Assembly: GCF_001536285.1 (NCBI RefSeq)
Contig: NZ_FAOZ01000002.1
Location: 434,001 to 498,000 of the forward strand
Direction of reading: 5' to 3'
Source of the DNA: Parafrankia irregularis
GTDB lineage: Bacteria > Actinomycetota > Actinomycetes > Frankiales > Frankiaceae
Length of the DNA: 64,000 nt
In this document: piece by piece, positions 25,165-51,539 of the stretch
Layout of the letters: every line of letters begins with the position of its first letter
How positions within the stretch are numbered: position 1 is the stretch's first letter
Translations under genes and position numbers: made by a program
The notes under the pieces: generated by a model
The model's input: only the letters and a program-made list of their open reading frames with translations
Told to the model about the DNA's origin: nothing
Databases searched by the model: none

Positions 25165-25926
25165 TCAGGTGTTGCGGCCGCCGTTGACGCCGATGATCTG
25201 GCCGGTGATGTAGCCGGCCTCCTCGGAGACAAGGAACGCGCACGCCGCGGAGATGTCCTCCGGCCGGCCGACGCGGCGGACCGGGGTTCGGGCGGCGTGC
25301 TCGTCCACGGTCGCGCCGAAACGGCCTTTCTGCTCGCTGAGACGCAGCATCGGGGTGTCGACGAAACCCGGAGGAATGGTGTTGACGGTGATGCCGCTCG
25401 GGCCGAGTTCGAGCGCGAGGGCCTTGGTGAAGCCGATGACGCCGGCCTTGGAAGCGACGTAGTGGGCCATGTAGGGCTGGCCACCCTGCGCGCTGGAGGA
25501 GGAGATGTTGACGATCCTGCCCCAGCCGGCCTCGATCATGTCCGGGAGGGCGGACTGGCAGCAGTGGAACGTCCCGGTCAGGTTCACGGTGAGGATCGAC
25601 GTCCAGGATTCCAGGGACATGTCGATGAACCGGTGGTAGCCGGTCTTTCCGGCCGAGTTCACCAGGATGGTGACGGGCCCGAGGTGTTCGCGGGTCTGCG
25701 CCAGGGCCTGGTCGACGCTCGCGCGGTCGGCGACATCGACGGCGAGAGCGTGCGCTGTGCCGCCGTCGGCCTCGATCTCGGCCACGACCTGCTTGGCGTC
25801 GCCCTCGTTGAGGTCCAGCACGGCCACCTTGGCGCCGTCCCGGGCCAGCCGCAGCGCGCATGAACGCCCGATTCCCGAGGCGCCGCCCGTCACGACGGCG
25901 ACCTTGCTGTTCAGTGTCCCGGCCAT
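25165..25926 (-). CDS. Short-chain dehydrogenase/reductase
   Basis: A 253-residue classical SDR. It has the cofactor motif TGGASGIG (residues 15-22), LDLNEGDAK after strand 2 (an acidic residue favouring NAD), NSAG, the catalytic Ser in NISSSSAQ, YVASK (Tyr and Lys) and the PGFVDTP loop. It looks most like 2-hydroxycyclohexanecarboxyl-CoA or 3-oxoacyl reductases, but specificity cannot be fixed. The ATG at 25926 starts the conserved domain. It lies 104 bp downstream of the TetR-AKR gene on the same strand and may be co-transcribed with it, opposite the Rieske gene. Confidence 0.87.
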   Translation of the reverse strand: MAGTLNSKVAVVTGGASGIGRSCALRLARDGAKVAVLDLNEGDAKQVVAEIEADGGTAHALAVDVADRASVDQALAQTREHLGPVTILVNSAGKTGYHRFIDMSLESWTSILTVNLTGTFHCCQSALPDMIEAGWGRIVNISSSSAQGGQPYMAHYVASKAGVIGFTKALALELGPSGITVNTIPPGFVDTPMLRLSEQKGRFGATVDEHAARTPVRRVGRPEDISAACAFLVSEEAGYITGQIIGVNGGRNT

Positions 25927-26030
25927 GTGTGTCTTTCCTTTCCGCGTCGACTGCCCGCGAGATGAGAGAGAAGAACGCGATGAGAGAGGGATGAGTGGCA
26001 GCTGCCGGCCGTCGCCGGATTCGGCTGGGG

Positions 26031-27770
26031 TCACAGGCGGGCGGATGGCGCGGTGGAGCCGTCGATCGCGGTGATGACCTCGCCGGGAAGGTCGACGTCC
26101 GCTGCCGCGAGAAGCTCGTCCAGTTGGGCGACGCCGGAGACGTCGACGCTTACCGTGGCGACGGGTCTCGTCCATTGCCAGGCCAGGTCAAGCTGCCTGG
26201 TCGTGCAGCCGAGCTGGGCCGCCGCCGCCTGTAGTCGTGCGGTCAGCGCGGGGTTCGTGGGGTCGGTCTCGTTCTCGGGGCGTGGAGTGCTGATGAACCC
26301 GAGGCCCTCCTCGGCGAGAAGGGGGAAATGCTCGCGTTCCGCCGCTCGTGCCGTCGGTCCGTACGCGGAGCGCAGGGAGATGAACCGGGCCCGGCCGAGC
26401 CGGTCGCTGGCGGCGACTGCCTTCATGATCCGGTAGGCGGGGAAGTCGGCGGCGCCGACGTAGAGGATCTTGCCCGCGCGAACGAGATCATCCAGTGCTT
26501 CGATGGTCTCCTCCAGCGGGGTCGACGGGTCGTCGGCGCTCAGCTGGTAGAGATCGATGTAGTCGGTCCCGAGCCGGCGAAGGGTCGCGTCGCAGGCCGC
26601 ACGGAGGTGGCGCCGGCTGTTCCGGCCGCCATGGCGGGCTTGATCCAGCGCCATACCGGTGTCGCCACCGCCACCGCCACCGCTCGTTCCGATGCCTGTT
26701 CCGGTGCTCGTTCCGGCTGCCAGCACGATCTGGGAACGCCTGCCGCGCAGCGAAGCCGCGCAGATCTCCGCGGCGTCGGCGGAAACGTCGGTGGCGTCGA
26801 TGAGGTTTCCGCCGGCGTCGAGGTAGCGGGCGACCAGACCCGCCGCGGTCGCCGGATCGCAGCCGCCGCCGGCCGCCCCGAAGGCCCGGATGCCGAGGGC
26901 GAGCCGGGAGACGTCCAGGCCGCTTCGGCCGAGCCGCGAATACCGCATCGCCGCGGCCTCGCGCCTGGGCCCGGCGTGCTTGGAGGTGGTGGTCTGGCTG
27001 GAACTGGCGTCGTCGACCACGTCGTCGCCAGCGCCAGCGCCAGCGCCAGTGCCTGGGCTCGGGTGACCGGCGCCGGCGAGTGATGTGGCGGGGGAGGAGT
27101 CGGGGCGGTCCTGGTGGCCGGGGCCGCGGGTGAGGACGCCGCTGAGGAAGAGCTGCACGGCGTGCTGAAGGCGCTGGTCCTCAAGCTCGGGACTGCGGTA
27201 GATGCCGTAGGCCGCGAGCCAGGCCGGCATCGCGCCGACCATGGCGAAGAACTGCTCGGCGGCCAGTTCGACGTTGCTGACCGAGACCGCGCCGGCGCGC
27301 TCGTGCTCCCGCAGCAGATCGATGATGACCTGGATGCGCGGTGACCAGGTCGTGGCCTGGGAGCTCGCCGCGAACTCGGGAAACCGGGCCGACTCGGCGA
27401 TCGCCATCCGGCTGAGGCGGACGATGTCCGGGTCGACGGACCGGGCGAGAATCGCCCGGGCGATCAGGGTCAGGCTGGCCGCGAGGTCGTCGGGCAGCGG
27501 CTCCAGGACCCGGGCGTCGCGTTCCTGGCGGGTGAGCGCCCAGGAGCTGACGGCGATGAACAGGGTCCGTTTGTCCGGGTACCGGCCGTACAGGGTGCTC
27601 TTGGTGACGCCCGCGGCTCGTGCCACCGCCTCCATGGTGGTCCGGTCGTAGCCGTGTTCGAGGAACGTGTCGACGGCGGCCCGGCGAAGCTTCTCCGTCA
27701 GCCGCGCCGCTTCCTCGGAGGTCGGTCTCCCGGCCCGGGACCGCGCACCGTCGTTCGCTCTGGGCTCCAT
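26031..27770 (-). CDS. TetR regulator fused to a catalytically incomplete aldo/keto reductase domain
   Basis: One uninterrupted frame of 579 residues. Residues 15-205 are a TetR regulator: a helix-turn-helix (LRRAAVDTFLEHGYDRTTME, AVARAAGVTKSTLYGRYPDK) and a ligand domain ending LFLSGVLTRGPG. A Gly/Ala/Ser-rich linker (about 205-274) leads to an aldo/keto reductase domain (MRYSRLGRSGLDVSRLALGI, then to TRPVATVSVDVSGVAQLDEL). In that domain the catalytic Asp remains (NLIDATD) but the Tyr is Ser (ATDVSAD, about 328), the Lys is Gly (VLAAG, about 352) and the His is Ser (LYQLSADD, about 411). The domain probably binds a ligand or NADP(H) instead of catalysing. A weak internal ribosome site before Met275 leaves separate translation possible. 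It is divergent from the Rieske gene. Confidence 0.82.
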   Translation of the reverse strand: MEPRANDGARSRAGRPTSEEAARLTEKLRRAAVDTFLEHGYDRTTMEAVARAAGVTKSTLYGRYPDKRTLFIAVSSWALTRQERDARVLEPLPDDLAASLTLIARAILARSVDPDIVRLSRMAIAESARFPEFAASSQATTWSPRIQVIIDLLREHERAGAVSVSNVELAAEQFFAMVGAMPAWLAAYGIYRSPELEDQRLQHAVQLFLSGVLTRGPGHQDRPDSSPATSLAGAGHPSPGTGAGAGAGDDVVDDASSSQTTTSKHAGPRREAAAMRYSRLGRSGLDVSRLALGIRAFGAAGGGCDPATAAGLVARYLDAGGNLIDATDVSADAAEICAASLRGRRSQIVLAAGTSTGTGIGTSGGGGGGDTGMALDQARHGGRNSRRHLRAACDATLRRLGTDYIDLYQLSADDPSTPLEETIEALDDLVRAGKILYVGAADFPAYRIMKAVAASDRLGRARFISLRSAYGPTARAAEREHFPLLAEEGLGFISTPRPENETDPTNPALTARLQAAAAQLGCTTRQLDLAWQWTRPVATVSVDVSGVAQLDELLAAADVDLPGEVITAIDGSTAPSARL

Positions 27771-34009: not shown

Positions 34010-35401
34010 TCAGTTCTGCGGCTGGGCCTTGTGCTGGGCGGGGAGATACGAGGGGGCTGTGATGCCCTGGCCAATGGCCGCCAGTGGTTCTTCCAGCTCC
34101 TGTCGACGCAGCACCGAGTCGAGGATCTCGCCGGCCCGGATCGAGATGTTGGACAGCAGGGATGACGAGATGCCGTGCTGGAACTCGCTCGCACCGGGAA
34201 CGTAGATGCCGGCGGTGGTGTCGGGCTTCGTCTCGATGCTGTAGTCGCGTGCGACCTGGAGCCGGCCGGAGTCGCTGACCAGGCAGGCGTCCTCCATGCT
34301 ACCGAGCACGCGCCGCGGGTCCCGGGCGTTGTAGCCGGTGGCGAGCACGACGATGTCGGTGTCCAGGACCCGCTTGTCGCCGGTGGGCAGGTGCCGGATG
34401 TGGACCCGGGTGCCGTCCGGCAGCGCCTCGTAGGCTTCCACCTGCGAGGCTCGCAGGAAGTACAGCCGCTGGGGCCCGCGGACCTTCTCCTGGTAGCTGC
34501 GCCGGTAGAGCTCGTCGATGAGGTCCATGTCGACCGCGGCGTAGTTGGTGCTGCGGTGGTAGGTCAGCAGCATCTCCCGGACGCCTTCCGGCGCGTGGTA
34601 GAACTCGTCGACGGCGTCCGGGTCGAAGATCTGGTTGACGAAGCCGCTGTTGTCGGCCGGTGTGAGCCCGTACCGGGCGAAGACCGCGAACACCTCGGCC
34701 TGCGGGAACCGGGTGTGCAGGTGTTCGGTCACCTCGGCGGCGCTCTGGCCGGCCCCGACCACGACGAAGCGCTGGCGTGGTGTCGACGGCATCTGCGCGA
34801 GCCGGTGCAGCAGGTCGTGGTTGTGCCACAGGCGGTCGCCGAGCTCGGCGTTTTCCGGCAGCCGCGGTTCGAGCCCGGCGGCGATGACGACGTTGCGGGC
34901 CCGGCGGACGACGGTTCGGCCCGGCTGGCCGGGCCGGCCGCTGATCACGTCGATGTAGGCGACCACGCCCTCGTGGACGACCGGCCGCAGATCCACGACC
35001 TCGGTGTCGTATTCGACCAGATAGTCGAGCCGGCCCGCGGCCCATTCCAGATAGTCGTGGTATTCGTGGCGCAGCGGGAACATCGTCTTGTGGTTGATGA
35101 AGTCCACGAGCCGGTTCTGCGAATGCAGGTAGTTCAGAAAGCTGAAGCTGCTGGACGGATTTCGCAGCGTCGCCAGATCCTTGAGGAAGGACACCTGCAT
35201 CGTGGCGCCGTCGAGCAGCATCCCGCGATGCCAACCGAAGCGGGGCTGGCGTTCAAGAAAGATCGCGCGCAGTGCGGCCCCGGCGGAGACGCTGCTGTTG
35301 TGTTCCTGGATCGCGATGCCTAGGGCGATGTTCGAGGGTCCGAACCCGACTCCGATGACGTCGTGCACACCGAGTTCCGCGGTCGGTGGACGGTCTCCCA
35401 C
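34010..35401 (-). CDS. L-ornithine N5-monooxygenase (SidA/PvdA/IucD family)
   Basis: FAD- and NADPH-dependent N-hydroxylating monooxygenase, 463 residues, that makes the hydroxamate precursor of siderophores. The FAD motif is VGFGPSNIALGIA (residues 17-29), the substrate pocket segment MQVSFLKDLATLRNPSSSFS follows, the NADPH motif is VVVGAGQSAAEV and the ATGYN motif lies near 350. Ornithine is preferred to lysine because a formyltransferase of the hydroxyornithine type is in the same locus; sequence alone does not decide. It is the left-most gene of the siderophore locus, with an iron box at 35441-35459 just before its start. Confidence 0.9.
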   Translation of the reverse strand: MGDRPPTAELGVHDVIGVGFGPSNIALGIAIQEHNSSVSAGAALRAIFLERQPRFGWHRGMLLDGATMQVSFLKDLATLRNPSSSFSFLNYLHSQNRLVDFINHKTMFPLRHEYHDYLEWAAGRLDYLVEYDTEVVDLRPVVHEGVVAYIDVISGRPGQPGRTVVRRARNVVIAAGLEPRLPENAELGDRLWHNHDLLHRLAQMPSTPRQRFVVVGAGQSAAEVTEHLHTRFPQAEVFAVFARYGLTPADNSGFVNQIFDPDAVDEFYHAPEGVREMLLTYHRSTNYAAVDMDLIDELYRRSYQEKVRGPQRLYFLRASQVEAYEALPDGTRVHIRHLPTGDKRVLDTDIVVLATGYNARDPRRVLGSMEDACLVSDSGRLQVARDYSIETKPDTTAGIYVPGASEFQHGISSSLLSNISIRAGEILDSVLRRQELEEPLAAIGQGITAPSYLPAQHKAQPQN

Positions 35402-35440: not shown

Positions 35441-35459
35441 TTAGGTTAACTTTACCTAT
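35441..35459. promoter_or_regulatory. Iron box 1 (IdeR/DmdR type)
   Basis: TTAGGTTAACTTTACCTAT fits the 19-base palindrome TTAGGTTAGSCTAACCTAA at 14 or more positions. It is 40 bp upstream of the N-monooxygenase ATG, so that gene should be repressed when iron is plentiful. The next 255 bp (35460-35714) contain no gene that I recognise; base composition there is lower in GC. Confidence 0.82.
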
Positions 35460-35714
35460 GTTCGGGTCGACCTGTTGCCCTGTCAAGGTGTTCGCCGAGG
35501 TCGCGCCGGTCGAGGTGGTGATGGGGGTGCTCGGTCGGGTCCACCCGGAGTGTGTGTGGAGACCTTGTGGTTGGTATCCGTTGTTGATTTGTTGCGCCCG
35601 TCGGGGTGAAGGATCGCGATTGCGGTGGGTCGCTGCGGATGGGTGTTGGCGACGGTACGTGACCAAACATGACCGTATGTCGCGACGACCGCGGGCCCGC
35701 TTGGGCTGGATGTG

Positions 35715-35733
35715 TTAAGTGAACCTAACTTAG
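35715..35733. promoter_or_regulatory. Iron box 2 (weaker)
   Basis: TTAAGTGAACCTAACTTAG matches the iron-box consensus at about 13 of 19 positions. It lies between the divergent N-monooxygenase and the decayed isochorismate synthase. Confidence 0.55.
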
Positions 35734-35817
35734 GTGTGATGCGGTTGGTGGTCAAGCGGGCCGGATGTGGCAACTCGCATGGCTCTCGGCGCCTTGACTG
35801 GTTGCGCCCTGCAAAGT

Positions 35818-35836
35818 ATAGGTTAAGTTAACCTAA
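35818..35836. promoter_or_regulatory. Iron box 3 (strong), facing a pseudogene
   Basis: ATAGGTTAAGTTAACCTAA is a nearly perfect palindrome that matches the consensus at 16 of 19 positions. The first coding-like sequence after it is the isochorismate synthase remnant, so it is probably the operator of that lost gene. Confidence 0.8.
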
Positions 35837-35879
35837 GATCTCTGCGTCGACGACGAGGACGAGGCACGGCCGATCGGCG

Positions 35880-36335
35880 GGCTGCGGCGCCGAACCGGAG
35901 ACCGACCGCCGCCGGGCCGCCGCGCTGCCTGCCTCCGCCAAGGGCCTGCACGAGCACGCGGTCGTCGTCGACGCGGTCGCCGACGCCCTTGCTGCGTGGG
36001 CCTGGCCGTCCCGGCGGCCCCGACGCCCTTGCTGCGTGGGCCTGGCCGTCCCGGCGGCCCCGACGCTCATCCGCACCGCGACCATGTGGCACCTGCCGAC
36101 GCGGATCAGCGGTTGGCTCGTGGATCTGTAGGTGTCGTTACTTCGTCTCGCCGCCGCGCTGCACCCCACCCCGGCGGTGTGCGGGTGGCCGACGTCCGCG
36201 GCCCGTGCCGCCATCGGCGACCTCGAGCCGGTCGACCGAGGCTGCTACCCGGTCTCGTCGGCTGGTGCTGGTGTGATGCCGAGGGTGACGGGGAGTGGGC
36301 ACTGACGATCCGCTGCGCCGAGATCACCTCGGACG
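35880..36335 (+). pseudogene. Isochorismate synthase (DhbC/EntC) remnant
   Basis: Pieces of the C-terminal half of a DhbC-type isochorismate synthase appear in order but in changing frames: ASAKGLHEHAVVVDAVADAL, then LIRTATMWHLPTRISG (followed by a stop), [36 protein letters not shown], and [17 protein letters not shown]. These are the family's [19 protein letters not shown] and GDGEW segments. A 40-bp tandem duplication (35981-36060) and at least two further shifts break the frame. The N-terminal half is absent. It lies on the plus strand downstream of iron boxes 2 and 3. Confidence 0.82.
35981..36060 (+). repeat. 40-bp perfect tandem duplication
   Basis: Bases 35981-36020 are repeated exactly at 36021-36060 inside the isochorismate synthase remnant. 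Since 40 is not a multiple of three, the duplication shifts the frame; its perfect identity suggests it is recent. Confidence 0.9.
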
Positions 36336-36391
36336 GAACCTCTGGCATCCCTGTCACCGCCGCCGCCCTGGAGCCTGCAAGGCCGTGGCCG

Positions 36392-37549
36392 TCAGCCGGC
36401 GCTGACCGCCACGGCCTTGCCCGACGCCGCGTCGCCGGAGGGATCTGCGCCAGCAGCACCGTCGGAGTCGGAGTCGGAGTCCGTGTCTGCGGCGTGGGAC
36501 CGAGGCCGGGCCTGCTCGGCTATCGCCAGGTTCTCGCGAAGCTCGCGGCGCCGGGCCCGGGCCGCGGGCACCACCAGCGGTGTGGCGGTCTCGGGGTCGG
36601 GCACGACGCTGCACGAGATGCCGAAGACCTCCTCCACCAGCTCCGCGGTGACGATCTCGTTGGGGTCCCCCTGTGCAACGATGCGCCCGTCCTTCATCGC
36701 GACCAGATGGGTGGCGTACCGGCAGGCCTGGTTCAGGTCGTGCAGGACGGCGACGAGGGTTCGGTTGCTCTCCTCGTGCAGGTCCGCGCACAGGTCGAGG
36801 ATCTCGATCTGGTGCGCGAGGTCCAGGAACGTCGTCGGCTCGTCCAGCAGCATGATCGGCGTCTGCTGGGCCAGCGCCATCGCGAGCCAGACCCGCTGGC
36901 GCTGGCCGCCGGAGAGCTCGTCGACGAACCGGTCGGCGAGGTCCTCGGTATGGGTGGCCGCGAGCGCGTCGCGGACGGCGTCCTCGTCCTGGCGGGACCA
37001 CTGGCGCAGCAGGCGCTGGTGGGGGTAGCGGCCCCGGGCGACCAGATCGGAGACGAGGATGCCGCTCGGGGCGATCGAGGTCTGCGGCAGCAGCCCCAGC
37101 CGGCGCGCCACCTCCTTGGACGGCAGCGACCGGATGAGCGCCCCGTCGAGGTAGACCGCGCCGTGGCGTGGGCGCAGCATCCGGGCCAGCGCCCGCAGCA
37201 GGGTCGACTTGCCGCAGGCGTTGGGGCCGACGATGACGGTGAAGGAGTTGTCGGGGATGCGCACACCGAGGTCGGTGGCGACGACGCGCTGGTCGTAGGC
37301 GAGGGTCAGGTCCCTCGCGTGCAGCCGGGGCTCCCCGTCGGGCTGGGAATCCACGGCGGGCTGGGAATCCACGGCCGGCTGGGACGCCATGGCCGCTGCG
37401 GCGGTCGACACCGCGGCCGCTGTCGTGGAACCGCCGTCGTCGCTGCGCTGTGGCAGGCCTGCTTTCCCCTCGCCGCCGTCGGCGGATGCGGCAGTCCTGC
37501 GCAACGATGCCGGGCGCTGTCCACGTCGTGTGTTCAAGGCCTCTACCAA
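36392..37549 (-). CDS. Iron-siderophore ABC transporter ATP-binding protein (FecE/FepC type)
   Basis: A 385-residue ATPase. The core (residues about 77-340) has Walker A GPNACGKST, Q-loop LPQTSIAP, signature LSGGQRQRVWLAMAL, Walker B IMLLDEPT and the H-loop in LVAVLHDLNQACRYATHL, as in FecE/FepC importers. About 75 N-terminal residues are low complexity with a repeated SQPAVD, and about 45 C-terminal ones are Asp/Ser/Ala-rich. The start is uncertain: TTG at 37549 uses the whole frame; the ATG at 37390 would trim most of the extension. It is divergent from the permease genes, with iron box 4 beside its start. Confidence 0.85.
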   Translation of the reverse strand: MVEALNTRRGQRPASLRRTAASADGGEGKAGLPQRSDDGGSTTAAAVSTAAAAMASQPAVDSQPAVDSQPDGEPRLHARDLTLAYDQRVVATDLGVRIPDNSFTVIVGPNACGKSTLLRALARMLRPRHGAVYLDGALIRSLPSKEVARRLGLLPQTSIAPSGILVSDLVARGRYPHQRLLRQWSRQDEDAVRDALAATHTEDLADRFVDELSGGQRQRVWLAMALAQQTPIMLLDEPTTFLDLAHQIEILDLCADLHEESNRTLVAVLHDLNQACRYATHLVAMKDGRIVAQGDPNEIVTAELVEEVFGISCSVVPDPETATPLVVPAARARRRELRENLAIAEQARPRSHAADTDSDSDSDGAAGADPSGDAASGKAVAVSAG

Positions 37550-44131: not shown

Positions 44132-44392
44132 ATGTCGACGAATCCCTTCGATGACGAAAGCGGGAGCTTCTTCGTACTGGTCAACTCCGAGGGTCAGCAC
44201 TCCCTCTGGCCGGGCTTCGCCGCCGTTCCGGCGGGTTGGACCGTTGTGCACGGCGAGGAGACACGTCAGTCCTGCCTGGACTACGTCGAGGCCCACTGGA
44301 CCGATCTGCGTCCGCTGAGCCTGGTCGCTCAGATGGATTCCGACGCCCGTGCCGGGGAAGTCGCCCGCTCCGACGCTTCAGCCTCCCGGTGA
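44132..44392 (+). CDS. mbtH: MbtH-like protein
   Basis: An 86-residue MbtH-family protein ([54 protein letters not shown]), with the conserved Ser, Trp and Pro residues that contact adenylation domains. It supports folding and activity of the adenylation domain of the NRPS encoded next. The ATG has a strong AAGGAGACGG ribosome site. The tail of about 15 residues beyond the fold is non-conserved. Its stop overlaps the NRPS start by 4 bases. Confidence 0.93.
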
Positions 44393-47300
44393 CCACCCGC
44401 CCCGACCGCCACCGCAGGATCGTCCCGTTCGGCCAGCAGCCCGCAGCCGTAGCCGCTCGGCTGGCCCGCTCCGCCACCGGCCCGTTCGTCGTGTACGAGC
44501 GCGCGGGCGAATGGTCCTTCGGGACGGGTGTCCTGGCCGAGATCGAGCTGCGTGCGCACGAGCTGCGTCACCGCACGGGCGCCGGGCAGTGGCAGGTCGA
44601 GCCGACCGGTCCCGCGCCGCTGCGCCAGGTCGCGGGCATCCTCGCCGGCCTCGACATCGCCGGCTGGCGGGCCTACGGCTGGGCGGCCTTCGAGCTCAGC
44701 CACCTGCTCGCCGGCCTCGCCGTGCCGACCGGGGACGCACCGCTGCTGCACCTGATCGTGCCCCGGCAGGAGGCTCGGCTCCTCGACGGTGTCGCGACCC
44801 TGCGCACCCTGGCGGCGGCCGCCATCCCACCGGCGACAGGCGGGCTGGCCGACTCGTCCGAGCAGGCGGCGCTGGCCGAGCTGGCAGAACTGGTCACGGG
44901 CGGTGCCGTGGACGCCCCGAGCGCCGCCGGTCCACTCGCCGTCGCCGACCTCGAGCACGGCGTCGACGGGTACCGGCAGGCCGTCGCCACGGCCGTCGCC
45001 GACATCCACGCCGAACGGCTGCGCAAGGTGATCCTCTCCCGGGTCGTCCCCGTCGAAGGTGACATCGACCTGGTCGCCACCTACGAGGCGGGCCGGGCCG
45101 GGAACACCCCGGCGCGCTCCTTCCTGCTGGACGTCGGCTACCTGCGCGCGACCGGCTTCAGCCCGGAGACCGTGGTCGAGGTGAGCGCCGACGGCCTCGT
45201 CTCCACCCAGCCGCTGGCCGGCACCCGGGCGCTCACCGGCGACGCCGCCACCGACCGCGGGCTGCGTGACGTGCTGCTCTCCGATCCGAAGGAGATCTAC
45301 GAGCACGCCGTCTCCGTGCAGGCCTGCCAGGAGGAGCTTCGTCGCTTCTGCCGGCCCGGCTCGGTCGCCGTCGACGAGTTCATGACCGTGCTCGAACGCG
45401 GCAGCGTCCAGCACCTGGCCTCCCGCGTCGCCGGGCGCCTCGCCGTCGGCCGCGACGCCTGGGACGCCTTCGGGACCGTCTTCCCGTCGATCACCGCCTC
45501 CGGGGTGCCGAAGGCAGCCGCCTGCGAGGCGATCACCGGGTACGAGAGCGAACCGCGTGGCCTCTACAGCGGGGCGGTGCTGACCGTCGACGCGGACGGG
45601 TCCCTGGACGCGGCGCTCGTCCTGCGCACCGTCTTCCAGCACGAGGGCCGGACATGGCTGCGGGCCGGCGCCGGCATCGTCGCCCAGTCCGAGCCCGACC
45701 GTGAGGCGGAGGAGACCCGGGAGAAGCTGCGCAGCGTCAGCCGTTTCCTCGTCACGGCCGCGCCAGCTGCGCCGGCCGCGCAGGCCGCACCGGCCGCACC
45801 GGCTCCGCGGACCGTGGCCGCCGCGGCGACCGCCGGCCCTGCGCTGGCCCAGGACATCGACGCGGTCCGCGCGATCGTGGCGCAGATGCTCGACGAGGAG
45901 CCCGAGGACGTCGGCTACGAGGCGAACCTGTTCGAGCTCGGGCTGGAGTCCATCGCCCTGATGAAGGCGGTCGGACGCTGGCGACAGGCCGGGGTCGCGG
46001 TCTCGTTCGGCGAGCTCGCCGAGAACCCGACCGTGGACGGCTGGTTCAAGATCCTCTCCGCCCGGATGCCCAGCGCCCCGGCGTCGGACGCACCTCCCGC
46101 CGGCGCGCCCTCCGCCGTGACGACGCCGCCTGCCGGGATCGCGCCTGCCGGGCTGCCGCCCGCGGGGGCGCCGCCTGCCGGTGAGGCCGTCACGGCGATT
46201 TCGCCGAGCCCCGTCGGGGAGCCTGCCGAAGCCCCCGCCGATGCGGACGGCGACACCGCCGCCGACACCGGCCTCGACCTCAACCTCAGCACCGGCACCG
46301 GCACCGCCGACGCCGACACGGACACCGACGACGCCGAGTTTCCGCTCGCGCTCATGCAGCACGCCTACTGGGTCGGCCGGGACGGCGGCCAGCCGCTCGG
46401 CGAGGTCGCCGCGCACCTGTTCACCGAGTTCGACGGCCAGGACGTCGACCCCGACCGGCTGCGCGGCGCAGTCGAGCGGCTGGTGGCCCGGCACGACATG
46501 CTCCGTGTGCGGGTCACCGACAACGGTGCCCAGATCGTCGAGGAGCACTCGGGCTGGCGTGGGCTCACCGTCCATGACCTGCGTGCCCTCGACGAGCCGA
46601 CGGTGCGGGCCCGCCTCGACGAGATCCGGGACCGGATGTCGCACGAGATGCTCGACATCGAGTCCGGTGAGGTCTTCGCGACCGCGCTGAGCCTGCTGCC
46701 GGCGGGGCGCACCCGACTGCACCTGGACGTCGACATGGTCGCCGCCGACGCGGTGAGCTTCCGCGTCCTGCTGGCCGACCTCGCCCGTTTCTACGATCAG
46801 CCGCAGGAGGTTCTCCCGCCGCTGGGCTACAGCTACCGCGAGTACCGCGCCGCGCGGGCGGCCGAGCGCACCGCCGCCGCCCGAGCGGCGGCCGAGTGGT
46901 GGCAGGGCCGGCTGCCGAGCCTGCCCGGCGCCCCCGGCCTGCCCCGGGTCGCCGACGCCGCCGGCAGTCGGGGACGGCCGTCGGTGGCACGGCGCCACTT
47001 CGTCCTCCCGCCGGCGGCCCGGGACGCCCTGCGCGCGGCCGCGCACAGCCGGGGCGTCACCCCGGCGATGGCCGTGGCCACCGCGTTCGCCGAGGTCCTC
47101 GCCGGGTGGAGCACCGAGTCGAGGTTCGTCCTCAACGTCCCGATGTTCGACCGGGAGCCGGTCCACCCCGACATCAACCAGGTCGTCGGCGACTTCACCA
47201 GCTCGGTGCTGCTGGAGGTCGACGTCACCGAGGACCTGCCGTTCGCGGCCCGGGTGCGCCAGATCCAGGCGCGGCTGCACGCCGACGCCGCGCACGCCGA

Positions 47301-49737
47301 GTACTCGGGCGTCGAGGTGCTGCGCGACCTGACCCGCCGCACCGGTGAGCAGGTGCTCGCGCCGGTCGTGTTCACCAGCGCCCTCGGGCTCGGCGAGCTG
47401 TTCGACGCCGGTGTGCGCCGCCTCTTCGGCGACCCGGTCTGGATCATCTCGCAGGGTCCCCAGGTGCTCCTGGACGCGCAGGTCACCGAGATCGACGGCG
47501 GCCTGCTGATCAACTGGGACGTCCGTGAGGACGAGTTCCCGGCCGGCGCCGTCGACGGGATGTTCGGTGCCTTCGAACGTCTCGTCCGGGATCTCGCCAC
47601 CGCCGGGGAGGCCTGGGACGTCCCTGTCGACGGCCTGCTGCCCGCGGCGACCGGTGAGATCCGCCGGGCGGTGAACGAGACCGCGGGGCGGGTGCCGACC
47701 CGGCTGCTGCACGAGGGGTTCTTCGAGCGGGCCGTCTGCGCCCCCGGCGCGCCCGCGCTGGTGTGGGACGACACCGCCGGCGCGCCCGGCCGGGGCGAGC
47801 TCAGCTACGGCGAGCTGCGGCGCCGGGCGCTGAGCCTGGCCGGCGCGCTGGTCGGTCACGGCGTGCGACGCGGTGACCTGGTCGGTGTCAGCCTGCCCAA
47901 GGGGCCGTCCCAGGTGGTCGCCGTGCTCGGCGTGCTGGCCGCGGGCGCGACGTACGTGCCGGTCGGCGTCGAGCAGCCGCCCGCCCGGGTGGAGCGCATC
48001 GCCACCGCCGCCGGCTTCGGCGTCCTGATCACCGAGGCGCCGCGCGACGGGGTCCCCGCCGGCGTTGTCCAGATCGCCCCCGACCAGGCCGCCCGGCCCG
48101 ACCCGGCTGTGCAGCCGCTGCCGGTTCCGGATCTGCTGGCGCCCGCGGAGCTCGGCGGGCTGGACCGGCCCGCCTACGTGCTGTTCACATCCGGGTCGAC
48201 CGGCCAGCCCAAGGGGGTCGAGGTCGGGCATCGGGCCGCGGCGAACACCATCGAGGACCTGATCGACCGGCTCGGCCTCGGTGCCGACGACCGCACGCTG
48301 GCGGTGTCGGCCCTCGACTTCGACCTGTCGGTGTTCGACCTGTTCGCGCCGCTGTCAGTCGGCGGTGCGGTGGTGCTGCTCGACGAGGAGTCGCGCCGGG
48401 AGGCGCACCGGTGGGCCGAGCTCGTCCGGGATCACCGGGTGACCATCCTCAACTGCGTTCCCACCGTGCTCGACCTCGTCCTGTCCGCCGGGGTGGACCT
48501 CGGCCCGACGCTGCGGGCCGTCCTGCTCGGCGGCGACCGGGTCGGTGTCGACCTGCCCGGCCGGCTGGACGCCGCGGTGCCCGGCTGCCGCTTCCTCGGT
48601 CTCGGCGGCACCACCGAGACGGCCATCCACTCGACGATCTGCGAGGTCGTCGGCACGGAGCCGGTGCCCGACTGGTGGCGTTCGGTGCCGTACGGCACGC
48701 CGCTGCGCAACGTGCGGCTGCGGGTGGTCGACCCGCTCGGCCGGGACTGCCCCGACCACGTCACCGGCGAGCTGTGGATCGGTGGCGACGGGGTCGCCCG
48801 CGGGTACCTGGGGGACCCGCAGCGGACCGCGGACCGGTTCGTCGAGTACGGCGGCCTGCGCTGGTACCGCACCGGTGACCTGGCCCGCTACCAGCCGGAC
48901 GGGACGGTCGAGTTCCTGGGCCGGCGCGACCACCAGGTCAAGATCCGGGGCTTCCGGGTCGAGCTCGGTGAGGTCGAGGCCGCGCTGGACACGCTGGAGC
49001 AGGTGCGGGCCGGCGTGGCGGTGCTCGTCGAGGGCGCCGCCGGCCACCCCGCCGCGCTCGGAGCCGGCGTGGTCCCCGTCGACACTGCGGGCGGCGACGC
49101 GGTGGGCGCCGACGCCGCGGGTACGGATCTGGCGGGTACGGAGCTGGCCACCGCGGTGCGGGAGGGCCTGCGCGGGATGCTGCCGCCGCACATGGTGCCC
49201 GACCTGGTGGTCACGCTCGACACCCTCCCGCTCACCGCGAACGGGAAGATCGACCGCAAGGCGGTGACGGCCGCCGTGCGCCACGCCCTGGGCGCGGGCA
49301 CGGGGGAGCACACCCCGCCGCGCGGCGATCTCGAACAGGTCGTGTTCAACGTCTGGCGCGAGGTGCTCGGCGTGCCGGAGTTCGGCGTCACCGACGAGTT
49401 CTTCGCGCTGGGCGGTGACTCCGTCCTGGCCACAGCCGTGGTGCGGCGGCTGCGCGACGAGCTGGACACCGCCGCGGTCACCGTCCGCTCCCTGTTCGCG
49501 GCGCCGACCGTCGCGACGCTCGCCGAGCGGATCCGGGCCGCCGACCCCGTCCCGGGCCGGGCGGACCGGGTCGCCGCGATCGCCCTGGAGATCGCGGCGA
49601 TGACCGACGCGGAGGTGGCCGCCGCGCTCGGCGGCGAGGCGACGGACCTCACCGCACCGGGACTCGACCAACCGGGACTGGACGAACAACCGGGACTCGA
49701 ACAACCGGGACTCGACGAACCGGGAGGCGCACGGTGA
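44389..49737 (+). CDS. Salicylate synthase fused to an NRPS (ArCP-Cy-A-PCP)
   Basis: A single 1782-residue frame. Residues 1-450 are a chorismate-using salicylate synthase (MbtI/Irp9 type): RKVILSR with the active Lys, [31 protein letters not shown] and [18 protein letters not shown], ending [20 protein letters not shown]. An aryl carrier protein follows ([13 protein letters not shown], Ser about 521). Residues about 650-1090 form a heterocyclisation domain with the DxxxxDxxS motif DMVAADAVS (about 783). The adenylation domain has [11 protein letters not shown] (about 1265), [23 protein letters not shown] and [14 protein letters not shown] ([11 protein letters not shown], Ser about 1678) and a PGLDQ-repeat tail end it; no thioesterase is present. 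The pocket residues DL-F and N resemble cysteine-type domains. Confidence 0.92.
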
Positions 49738-51539
49738 CCGTCCCGTCGACGACTGACCGGCCCGACGGCCAGCTCGACGCCCACCCTGAAGGCCAGCCTG
49801 ACGGCCAGCCCGGCGGCGGCGCGGCGGGCCCGGGGTGGAACCGGTGGCCGGCGGAGTTCGTCGAGCGGTACCAGGAGGCCGGCTACTGGGGCGACCGGAC
49901 GCTGGACGAGCTGCTGCGGGAGTGGGCCCGCCGGTCCGGGCCGGCCACCGCGCTGGTCTGCGGGGACCGGCGAATCAGCTACGCCGAGCTCGACGAGGCG
50001 GTGGACGACCTCGCCGCGGGGCTCGCCTCGATCGGCATCGGCCCCGGTGACCACCTGGTGGTGCATCTGCCGAACCGCGCCGAGTTCGTGACGACGCTGT
50101 TCGCGCTGATGCGCCGCGGCGCGATCGGCATCCTCGCGCTGCCGGCCCACCGGCGGGTGGAGATCGAGCACTTCGCGAGCCTGGCCGGCGCCGTCGGGTA
50201 TGTCATCGCCGACCGGTTCGAAGGTTTCGACTACCGGGAGCTGGCCCGCCAGGTGACCGAGGCGGTGCCGTCGGTGCGGCACGTTCTGGTGGCGGGCGAG
50301 CCCGGTCCGTACACGGGCCTCGACGCGCTGGCCTCGGCGGGCCGCTCCACCCGGCTGGCCGCCGCGCCTTCCGCTGCCACCGCCACCGCCACCGCCGACG
50401 CCGCCGCTGCCGATGCCACCGCTGGCGGGGCTACGGCAGGAGGGGCTACCGCTGGCGGGGCCACCGTCCCCGGGCGGGATCCGGGCGACATCGCCGTGCT
50501 GCTCATCTCCGGCGGGACGACCGGCAAGCCGAAGCTGATCCCGCGCACCCACCGCGACTACGCCTACAACGCCCGGGCCAGCGCCGAGGTGTGCCGGCTC
50601 ACCGCCGCCGACGTCTACCTGGTCGCGCTGCCGGCGGCGCACAACTTCCCGCTGGCCTGCCCGGGGATCCTCGGCGCGTTCACCGTGGGTGCGTCGGCGG
50701 TGATGGCGCTGTCGTCCAGCCCGGACGCCGTCTTCGACCTGATCAGCAGGGAGCGGGTGACGGTCACCGCGGCCGTCCCGCCGCTGGCACGGCTGTGGGT
50801 CGAGGCGGCCGGGTGGGAGGGGCCGGACACCACCAGCCTGCGCCTGCTCCAGGTGGGCGGCGCCAAGCTCGACGAGGGCCTCGCCCGGCGGATCACGCCG
50901 ACGCTCGGGGCCGGCGTCCAGCAGGTCTTCGGGATGGCCGAGGGGCTGCTGAACTACACCCGCCTCGACGACCCCGACGAGACCGTCTTCACCACCCAGG
51001 GCCGGCCGCTGGCCGAGGCGGACGAGGTCCGGGTGCTCGACGGGTCCGGGTACGAGGTGCCGGCCGGCCAGGTCGGTGAGCTGTGGACCCGCGGGCCCTA
51101 CACCATCCGCGGGTACTACCGGGCCGCGGCGCACAACGCGACCGTCTTCGGTGCCGACGGCTTCTTCCGCACCGGCGACCTCGTGCGTCAGCTGCCCACC
51201 GGGCATCTGGTGGTCGAGGGCCGGGTCAAGGACGTGATCAACCGCGGCGGGGAGAACGTCTCGGCCGGTGAGCTGGAGGAGCACCTGCAGACCCATCCCG
51301 CGGTCGCCCAGGTGGCGGTCGTCGGGCTGCCCGACCCCGATGTCGGGGAGAGCGTCTGCGCGGTCGTCGTCGCGGCCCCGGGTGGCGCGCCCCGGCTCAA
51401 GGAGATCAAGAACTATCTGCGGGACCGCGGCCTGGCCCGGTTCATGCTTCCCGACCGGCTCGAGGTCATGGACGGGTTCCCCTACACCGCCGTCGGGAAG
51501 ATCGACAAGCGGGAGCTGCGGAACCGGCTCGACCAGTGA
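49734..51539 (+). CDS. Salicyl/2,3-dihydroxybenzoyl-AMP ligase (MbtA/DhbE/EntE type)
   Basis: A 601-residue aryl-adenylating enzyme that should load the aryl carrier domain of the preceding NRPS. It has [20 protein letters not shown], the core [20 protein letters not shown], the pocket segment [14 protein letters not shown] (with the aryl-acid Asn), [37 protein letters not shown] and [12 protein letters not shown]. Salicylate is expected as substrate because the synthase in this operon makes it. Residues 205-245 are a Thr/Ala/Gly-rich insertion built on a GGATA repeat. The GTG overlaps the NRPS stop by 4 bases. It is the third gene of the operon. Confidence 0.93.

Follow-up and report, generated by a model that had tools for sequence, protein, structure and literature searches.

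Probable late and recurrent loss of an isochorismate synthase gene from a salicylate-type siderophore cluster in Parafrankia

Does the siderophore cluster of Parafrankia irregularis carry the remains of an isochorismate synthase (ICS) gene and, if so, what was this gene for, and when and why did it break beside an intact fused salicylate synthase? The question is raised by a short stretch between an N-monooxygenase gene and a gene for an iron-siderophore ABC ATPase (FecE/FepC-like, hereafter FecE), within a window of 64,000 nucleotides of contig NZ_FAOZ01000002.1, which is the whole stretch of DNA that was analysed. The features of the locus and of its cluster are listed in Table 1.

Table 1. 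Features of the ICS locus and the siderophore cluster (positions in the window; a dot marks a feature without strand).
Feature	Position	Strand	Basis and remarks
Lysine/ornithine N-monooxygenase-like gene	34010..35401	-	PF13434 362.7 bits; TIGR04439 178.7, below cut-off 700; left neighbour, divergent from ICS
Iron box 1	35441..35459	-	Consensus score 15/19; adjoins monooxygenase start
Iron box 2	35715..35733	.	Consensus score 14/19; within 35712-35767
Iron box 3, probable former operator of ICS gene (putative)	35818..35836	+	16/19 to DtxR/IdeR consensus
ICS remnant (DhbC type)	35874..36336	+	Corresponds to roughly codons 248-389 of the 429 in intact EI5c ICS; nucleotide and amino acid identity, PF00425 matches
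Perfect 40-bp tandem duplication, two copies	35980..36059 (35980-36019/36020-36059)	+	Repeat search; inside remnant
In-frame TAG stop	36129..36131	+	Translation; between second and third segment
20-bp inverted repeat	36377..36420	.	Repeat search; arms (95% complementary) separated by 4 nt; lies where remnant and FecE converge
Iron-siderophore ABC ATPase (FecE/FepC-like)	36392..37549	-	PRK10253 362.3 bits, cut-off 497; PF00005; right neighbour, convergent with ICS
MbtH-like gene	44132..44392	+	PF03621 98.2 bits; directly before NRPS
Fused salicylate synthase - aryl carrier - condensation/cyclisation - adenylation - carrier NRPS	44389..49737	+	TIGR03494, Pfam domains
Aryl-AMP ligase	49734..51539	+	Best PDB match salicylate-AMP ligase 5wm2, 636 bits; TIGR02275 (DHB ligase) 622, below cut-off 723.55

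Judged by its similarity to known proteins, the stretch is a decayed ICS gene of the DhbC/EntC type. Compared with the intact ICS gene of Frankia sp. EI5c, the remnant showed 75.4% nucleotide identity over 464 aligned columns, and its protein 72% amino acid identity over 125 aligned residues. When the frame pieces were scanned separately, two of them matched PF00425 (Chorismate_bind) with E-values of 2e-7 (31.3 bits) and 1.1e-9 (38.7 bits) at a cut-off of 27; the piece in the third frame gave only E 0.21 (11.5 bits). A whole-genome search returned the remnant at G000:C2:469886-470248 (G000 being the genome of the window) with 75.6 bits and one internal TAG, and TIGR00543 gave it 75.7 bits (E 1.2e-20), below the cut-off. 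Aligned locally to the intact EI5c gene, 35837-36400 scored 517.5, against a maximum of 135.5 for 100 single-base shuffles. The initial annotation had read the stretch as an ICS from four DhbC/EntC segments following in order at 35818-36335; all four are present, and both the PF00425 scans and the comparison with the shuffles bear out the similarity to ICS.

The likeness to DhbC/EntC (TIGR00543, PRK06923, PDB 3os6) is one of homology over the middle-to-C-terminal part that the remnant has kept. The difference is that the copy in the window lacks both ends and carries a stop and a frame change, and it cannot make an enzyme. Relative to the 429-codon EI5c gene, about the first 247 and the last 40 codons are gone, which is more than half of the gene and mostly its 5' side. 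These end deletions, unnamed in the initial annotation, are the largest lesion. No open frame runs the full length, and the 5' catalytic part is missing; what is lost includes the stretches beginning at EI5c codons 169 and 226, which presumably have a catalytic role. The remaining damage is one stop codon in frame, one or more frame changes and the 40-bp duplication. The frames had been described as broken; the break is real, but only one of the four segments (14 residues) sits in a different frame, and the other three (HEHAVVVDAVADAL, TATMWHLPTRI and HPTPAVCG) share one frame. The duplication, said to add to the damage, is indeed perfect, but it does not by itself cause the frame break, because in the alignment to EI5c the reading frame does not change across it.

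It is almost inconceivable that the match is due to chance or to a sequencing artefact. The draft state of the assembly (9,536,211 bp in 82 contigs) speaks for it, but base-calling errors cannot produce missing ends, and the distance between the alignment score and the shuffles, together with the synteny with an intact gene, led us to call this reading refuted. Moreover, around box 3 two contigs of the nearest relative (G001) overlap identically (253/253 bases); the ICS remnant of G001 itself lies on one of them only. Searches of the open-licence literature on Frankia and Parafrankia siderophores and on ICS loss found no account of the remnant in the window.

An intact gene at the same place in a relative, which had been proposed as a check, was found in Frankia sp. 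EI5c (G005; NZ_LRTK01000030.1), a strain placed in cluster 3, Parafrankia, in PMC9680954. Its 429-codon ICS gene (L027:8889-10178) lies between orthologues of both neighbours of the remnant. It is oriented like the remnant, running away from the monooxygenase gene and towards FecE. The listed TTG start (L027:8889) is preceded by GGAGGA and lies 57 nt downstream of the iron box. The EI5c protein passes TIGR00543 (259.6, cut-off 224.75) but reaches only 99.8 against the salicylate synthase profile TIGR03494 (cut-off 325.15). This sets it apart from the MbtI/Irp9 salicylate synthases, which belong to the same chorismate-binding superfamily as the remnant and include the fused domain of the window. 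Its best PDB match is DhbC (3os6), from which it differs in falling short of the DhbC equivalog cut-off (445.5 vs 486) and in that no dhbA/dhbB partner was found for it.

In a tree of 65 ICS relatives, EI5c groups with Candidatus Frankia californiensis (99/94), a join at which two long branches meet and for which the program warns of possible false grouping. The F. californiensis (G021) homologue is over the TIGR00543 cut-off and is also divergent from an N-monooxygenase. ICS over the cut-off was found in 1/6 genomes of the genus and 2/35 of the family, and salicylate synthase, fused or free, in 5/6 and 23/35, respectively. Both family genomes with ICS over the cut-off also carry a salicylate synthase over the cut-off; in F. 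californiensis, whose genome is only 81% complete, the synthase is unfused (open frame of 480 aa) and lies on another contig.

The strong iron box 3 that had been noted just before the remnant is real, and a corresponding box also precedes the intact EI5c gene. The boxes were scored against a 19-bp palindromic DtxR/IdeR consensus; two sites with at most three mismatches to it occur in the window, with 0.00 expected. The core of box 3 is an exact AGGTTANSNTNACCT match on both strands. All six genus genomes, five of them without intact ICS, have a box in the corresponding place (scores 14-16 of 19), with 348-445 nt between it and a point 10 nt into the monooxygenase gene. The similarity between the window and G001 ends 13 nt past box 3, and that between G003 and G004 about 1 nt past it. 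Box 3 would be either a relic of the ICS gene or part of a stretch that has been retained, up to the box, for control of the monooxygenase. Near box 3, neither the window nor EI5c gave a hit in a scan for sigma-70 promoters. The 56 bp around box 2 (35712-35767) are 93% identical to EI5c, and the flanks directly beside them gave no match at E 1e-3; box 2 was not found in G002.

The kind of siderophore bears on what the ICS was for. According to PMC12971057, 2,3-dihydroxybenzoate (2,3-DHB) is marked by EntC together with EntA, and salicylate by either a lyase or a salicylate synthase; under these rules the cluster counts as a salicylate one. The fused salicylate synthase domain passes TIGR03494 with 449.1 bits (cut-off 325.15) and matches MbtI (2g5f) with 300 bits. 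The aryl-AMP ligase has the motifs HNFPLACPG and GLLNYTRL, compared with HNFALACPG and GLLNYTRL in the salicylate enzyme 5wm2 and HNYPLSSPG and GLVNY in DhbE. Two pocket positions, which we assume to separate salicylate from 2,3-DHB ligases, are Cys and Leu in the window, EI5c, G002 and G004, Ser and Val in Bacillus DhbE, and Ala and Ile in F. californiensis. In the first four genomes the pocket looks salicylate-type. The F. californiensis ligase beside ICS (L038:11350-13068) has an unusual pocket (HNFALSAPG, GLINY) that follows neither the salicylate nor the DhbE pattern.

According to the initial annotation, the locus once made isochorismate, either for 2,3-DHB or for a two-step route to salicylate. 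An ICS was indeed encoded, but the 2,3-DHB route fits poorly with a salicylate-type ligase pocket and with DhbA below the cut-off. In its fuller form, this route would make the ICS part of a dhbACEB-like cassette of an older catechol siderophore, with the remnant as its last piece, an origin that we consider unlikely. At the score limits chosen, homologues of DhbA, DhbB and DhbE are present in at least 43 of the 65 ICS loci, among which EI5c and F. californiensis are counted; two Actinomycetospora loci (L083 and L101) have an N-monooxygenase directly beside dhbA-C-E-B; and the EI5c ICS is nearest to DhbC. In addition, PDB 5kei, which has the pocket motif of the window ligase, was named a 2,3-dihydroxybenzoate-AMP ligase by its depositors; we take 5kei to be the mycobacterial MbtA, a salicylate enzyme. 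Among the genus genomes, however, DhbA exceeds the cut-off in just two, G002 and G004, where it lies on other contigs, and it is below the cut-off in G000 and EI5c; at E 1e-50 no DhbA match was found in EI5c, F. californiensis or G018. The EI5c stretches searched contained no DhbA match, and their DhbB match covers the carrier domain only. Taken together, these observations disfavour the cassette for the genus. A short-chain dehydrogenase at 25165-26175 was considered as DhbA and rejected (37% identity over 251 residues, but 160.8 vs a cut-off of 300).

The two-step PchA/PchB pathway would likewise use an ICS in a salicylate siderophore cluster. The difference, a weak one because 0/14 controls passed the cut-off either, is that isochorismate-pyruvate lyase (TIGR01803) was over it in 0/6 genus genomes, with one match below it in G002 (52.9 vs 73.35). 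Isochorismatase-family proteins occur in 6/6 genus genomes, and 0/5 of those in EI5c are on the contig of the ICS locus. The ICS looks like an orphan within the salicylate cluster, and EI5c has no dedicated isochorismate consumer over the cut-off that would establish its old role. Elsewhere, G002 (C159:29546-32164) and G004 (C180:57944-60678) have another cluster in which DhbA over the cut-off, an isochorismatase and a chorismate-binding enzyme are adjacent; this cluster perhaps makes 3-hydroxyanthranilate rather than 2,3-DHB.

ICS is also the first step of the classical menaquinone route, but it is highly improbable that the gene served menaquinone synthesis. MenD was over the cut-off in 0/6 genus genomes (7/14 controls), and the ICS is located in an iron-boxed siderophore cluster.

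The way in which the gene was lost could be followed in the related genomes. A tree of six concatenated proteins, built from genes at the ICS locus and with G003 contributing 2/6 proteins, gave ((G000,G001),(G002,EI5c)),(G003,G004), with support for the relevant forks from 98.4/99 to 100/100. In G001 a remnant of about codons 139-199 was found (69% identity over 62 aligned residues, with an ungapped block of 47 residues), a part that is absent from the window; the part kept in the window had no match in G001. A second stretch of G001 (L029:322-720), considered as a degenerate 5' half, was rejected (alignment 87.0 vs shuffle maximum 97.0). The gap in G002 had no ICS trace (46.0 vs shuffle maximum 61.5). 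As the gene (EI5c) and the remnants (G000 and G001) are at the same place, the common ancestor of G000, G001, G002 and EI5c had the ICS. The deletions in G000 and G001 are separate, since G001 keeps codons that are lost in the window and vice versa. There were at least three separate deletions among these four related genomes, or two losses of function if the sisters share an unseen first lesion. If there was one early inactivation common to G000 and G001, different deletions followed later; the two remnants do not overlap.

Outside these four, the gap of G003 had no ICS trace (36.5 vs shuffle maximum 50.5), and that of G004 gave a best alignment of 106.5, at the edge of chance (100 shuffles reached at most 106.0). 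Both genomes may never have had the ICS. At this place (L031, G003:C58, 8611-9500), G003 is without ICS, FecE, the two FecCD genes and the two ABC genes, and almost the whole salicylate synthase NRPS is missing; a salicylate synthase over the cut-off was not found in the G003 genome.

The time of decay was approached through the codon positions. Between the remnant and EI5c, mismatches at positions 1, 2 and 3 numbered 14/135, 13/135 and 45/135, after removal of 18 coding columns where the duplication lies and of all columns past coding position 1165. The neighbouring monooxygenase had 60/464, 44/464 and 149/464 mismatches to EI5c, and at positions 1 and 2 taken together the remnant and the monooxygenase did not differ (p=0.66). 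The G001 block gave 6/48, 6/48 and 20/47. As far as codon positions can tell, these counts show that the ICS was under about the same constraint as its working neighbour until recently. As a rough bound from 270 sites, calibrated on a single neighbouring gene and under a half-branch assumption, the unconstrained share of the window branch was at most 0.23 (95th percentile). This is approximately the part of the branch that follows the split from G001, measured by third positions of the monooxygenase (34/463 to G001, 149/464 to EI5c, uncorrected for repeated changes).

A similar block without ICS is found more widely in the family. In 7/16 family stretches (G019, G041, G040, G043, G010, G050 and G017), the monooxygenase, the transporters and the fused synthase are present with no ICS between; G044 ends at a contig end, and the other 8/16 are without such a block. 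The redundancy between salicylate synthase and ICS is probably old, because the synthase is widespread (23/35) and coexists with an intact ICS in EI5c; the decay is young. On the other hand, the long constraint on the ICS beside the synthase argues that the two are not simply redundant. The initial annotation held that the fused synthase had made the ICS dispensable; this is possible, given the intact fused synthase in the cluster, but incomplete in view of the long coexistence and the recent constraint. Redundancy may permit the loss but does not alone explain its timing.

Taken as a whole, the most probable explanation by a wide measure of confidence is that the remnant is a recent pseudogene of an iron-boxed ICS in a salicylate-type cluster, lost late and recurrently, with redundancy as the likeliest cause. 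Synteny, homology and the locus tree show that the common ancestor of the four Parafrankia genomes carried the ICS gene between those for the N-monooxygenase and FecE. The intact enzyme would have converted chorismate to isochorismate, presumably under iron limitation, as its family and the iron box suggest. The codon-position pattern shows ordinary purifying selection for most of its history, during which the fused synthase, present in EI5c and in the ICS-less relatives, was presumably there alongside. The breakage then came late, by deletions that differ between the window's genome and that of its nearest relative, and a third genome has lost the gene altogether. To judge from the intact domain and its cluster, salicylate would now come from the fused MbtI-type domain alone. 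The likeliest cause, redundancy with the fused synthase, would have become effective only after some later change.

The maintained constraint could also mean that the ICS fed isochorismate to the lyase half of the fused salicylate synthase, giving more salicylate in iron starvation, and was useful, inessential and easily lost. We see this as possible, though not as the favoured reading. MbtI/Irp9-type enzymes pass through an isochorismate intermediate, as stated in PMC8150894, the two enzymes occur together in 2/2 family genomes with ICS over the cut-off, and EI5c is without another dedicated isochorismate consumer over the cut-off. This last point is weakened by the lyase search, in which the controls also failed, and the co-occurrence by the incomplete F. 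californiensis genome and its unfused synthase on another contig. A bolder form strikes us as improbable: a free ICS supplying the lyase half of the NRPS-fused synthase, long maintained by selection, would now be breaking down independently in each of the sister species, with its operator repurposed.

Under the preferred reading of a recent pseudogene, the locus is a clear case of recurrent gene loss caught in progress, which is a known process and not a new system. It offers a replicated example of a siderophore cluster shedding a precursor enzyme beside an intact alternative enzyme: one strain keeps the gene whole, two close relatives have it broken, each in its own way, and a third no longer has it. 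The puzzle is that an apparently redundant enzyme was long conserved and then repeatedly lost. For annotation, ICS remnants in Frankiaceae should not be used to predict catechol siderophores.

Some further features of the cluster were observed. The inverted repeat at the convergent end of the remnant and FecE is a possible terminator common to both; the terminator scan did not report it. The NRPS open reading frame is listed with a TTG start at 44236 and is overlapped by the MbtH-like gene; the true start is probably the GTG at 44389. The carrier that follows the salicylate synthase (45865-46065) resembles the C-terminal carrier of DhbB, with 43% identity over 67 aa in the window and 46-51% in G002, G004 and EI5c.
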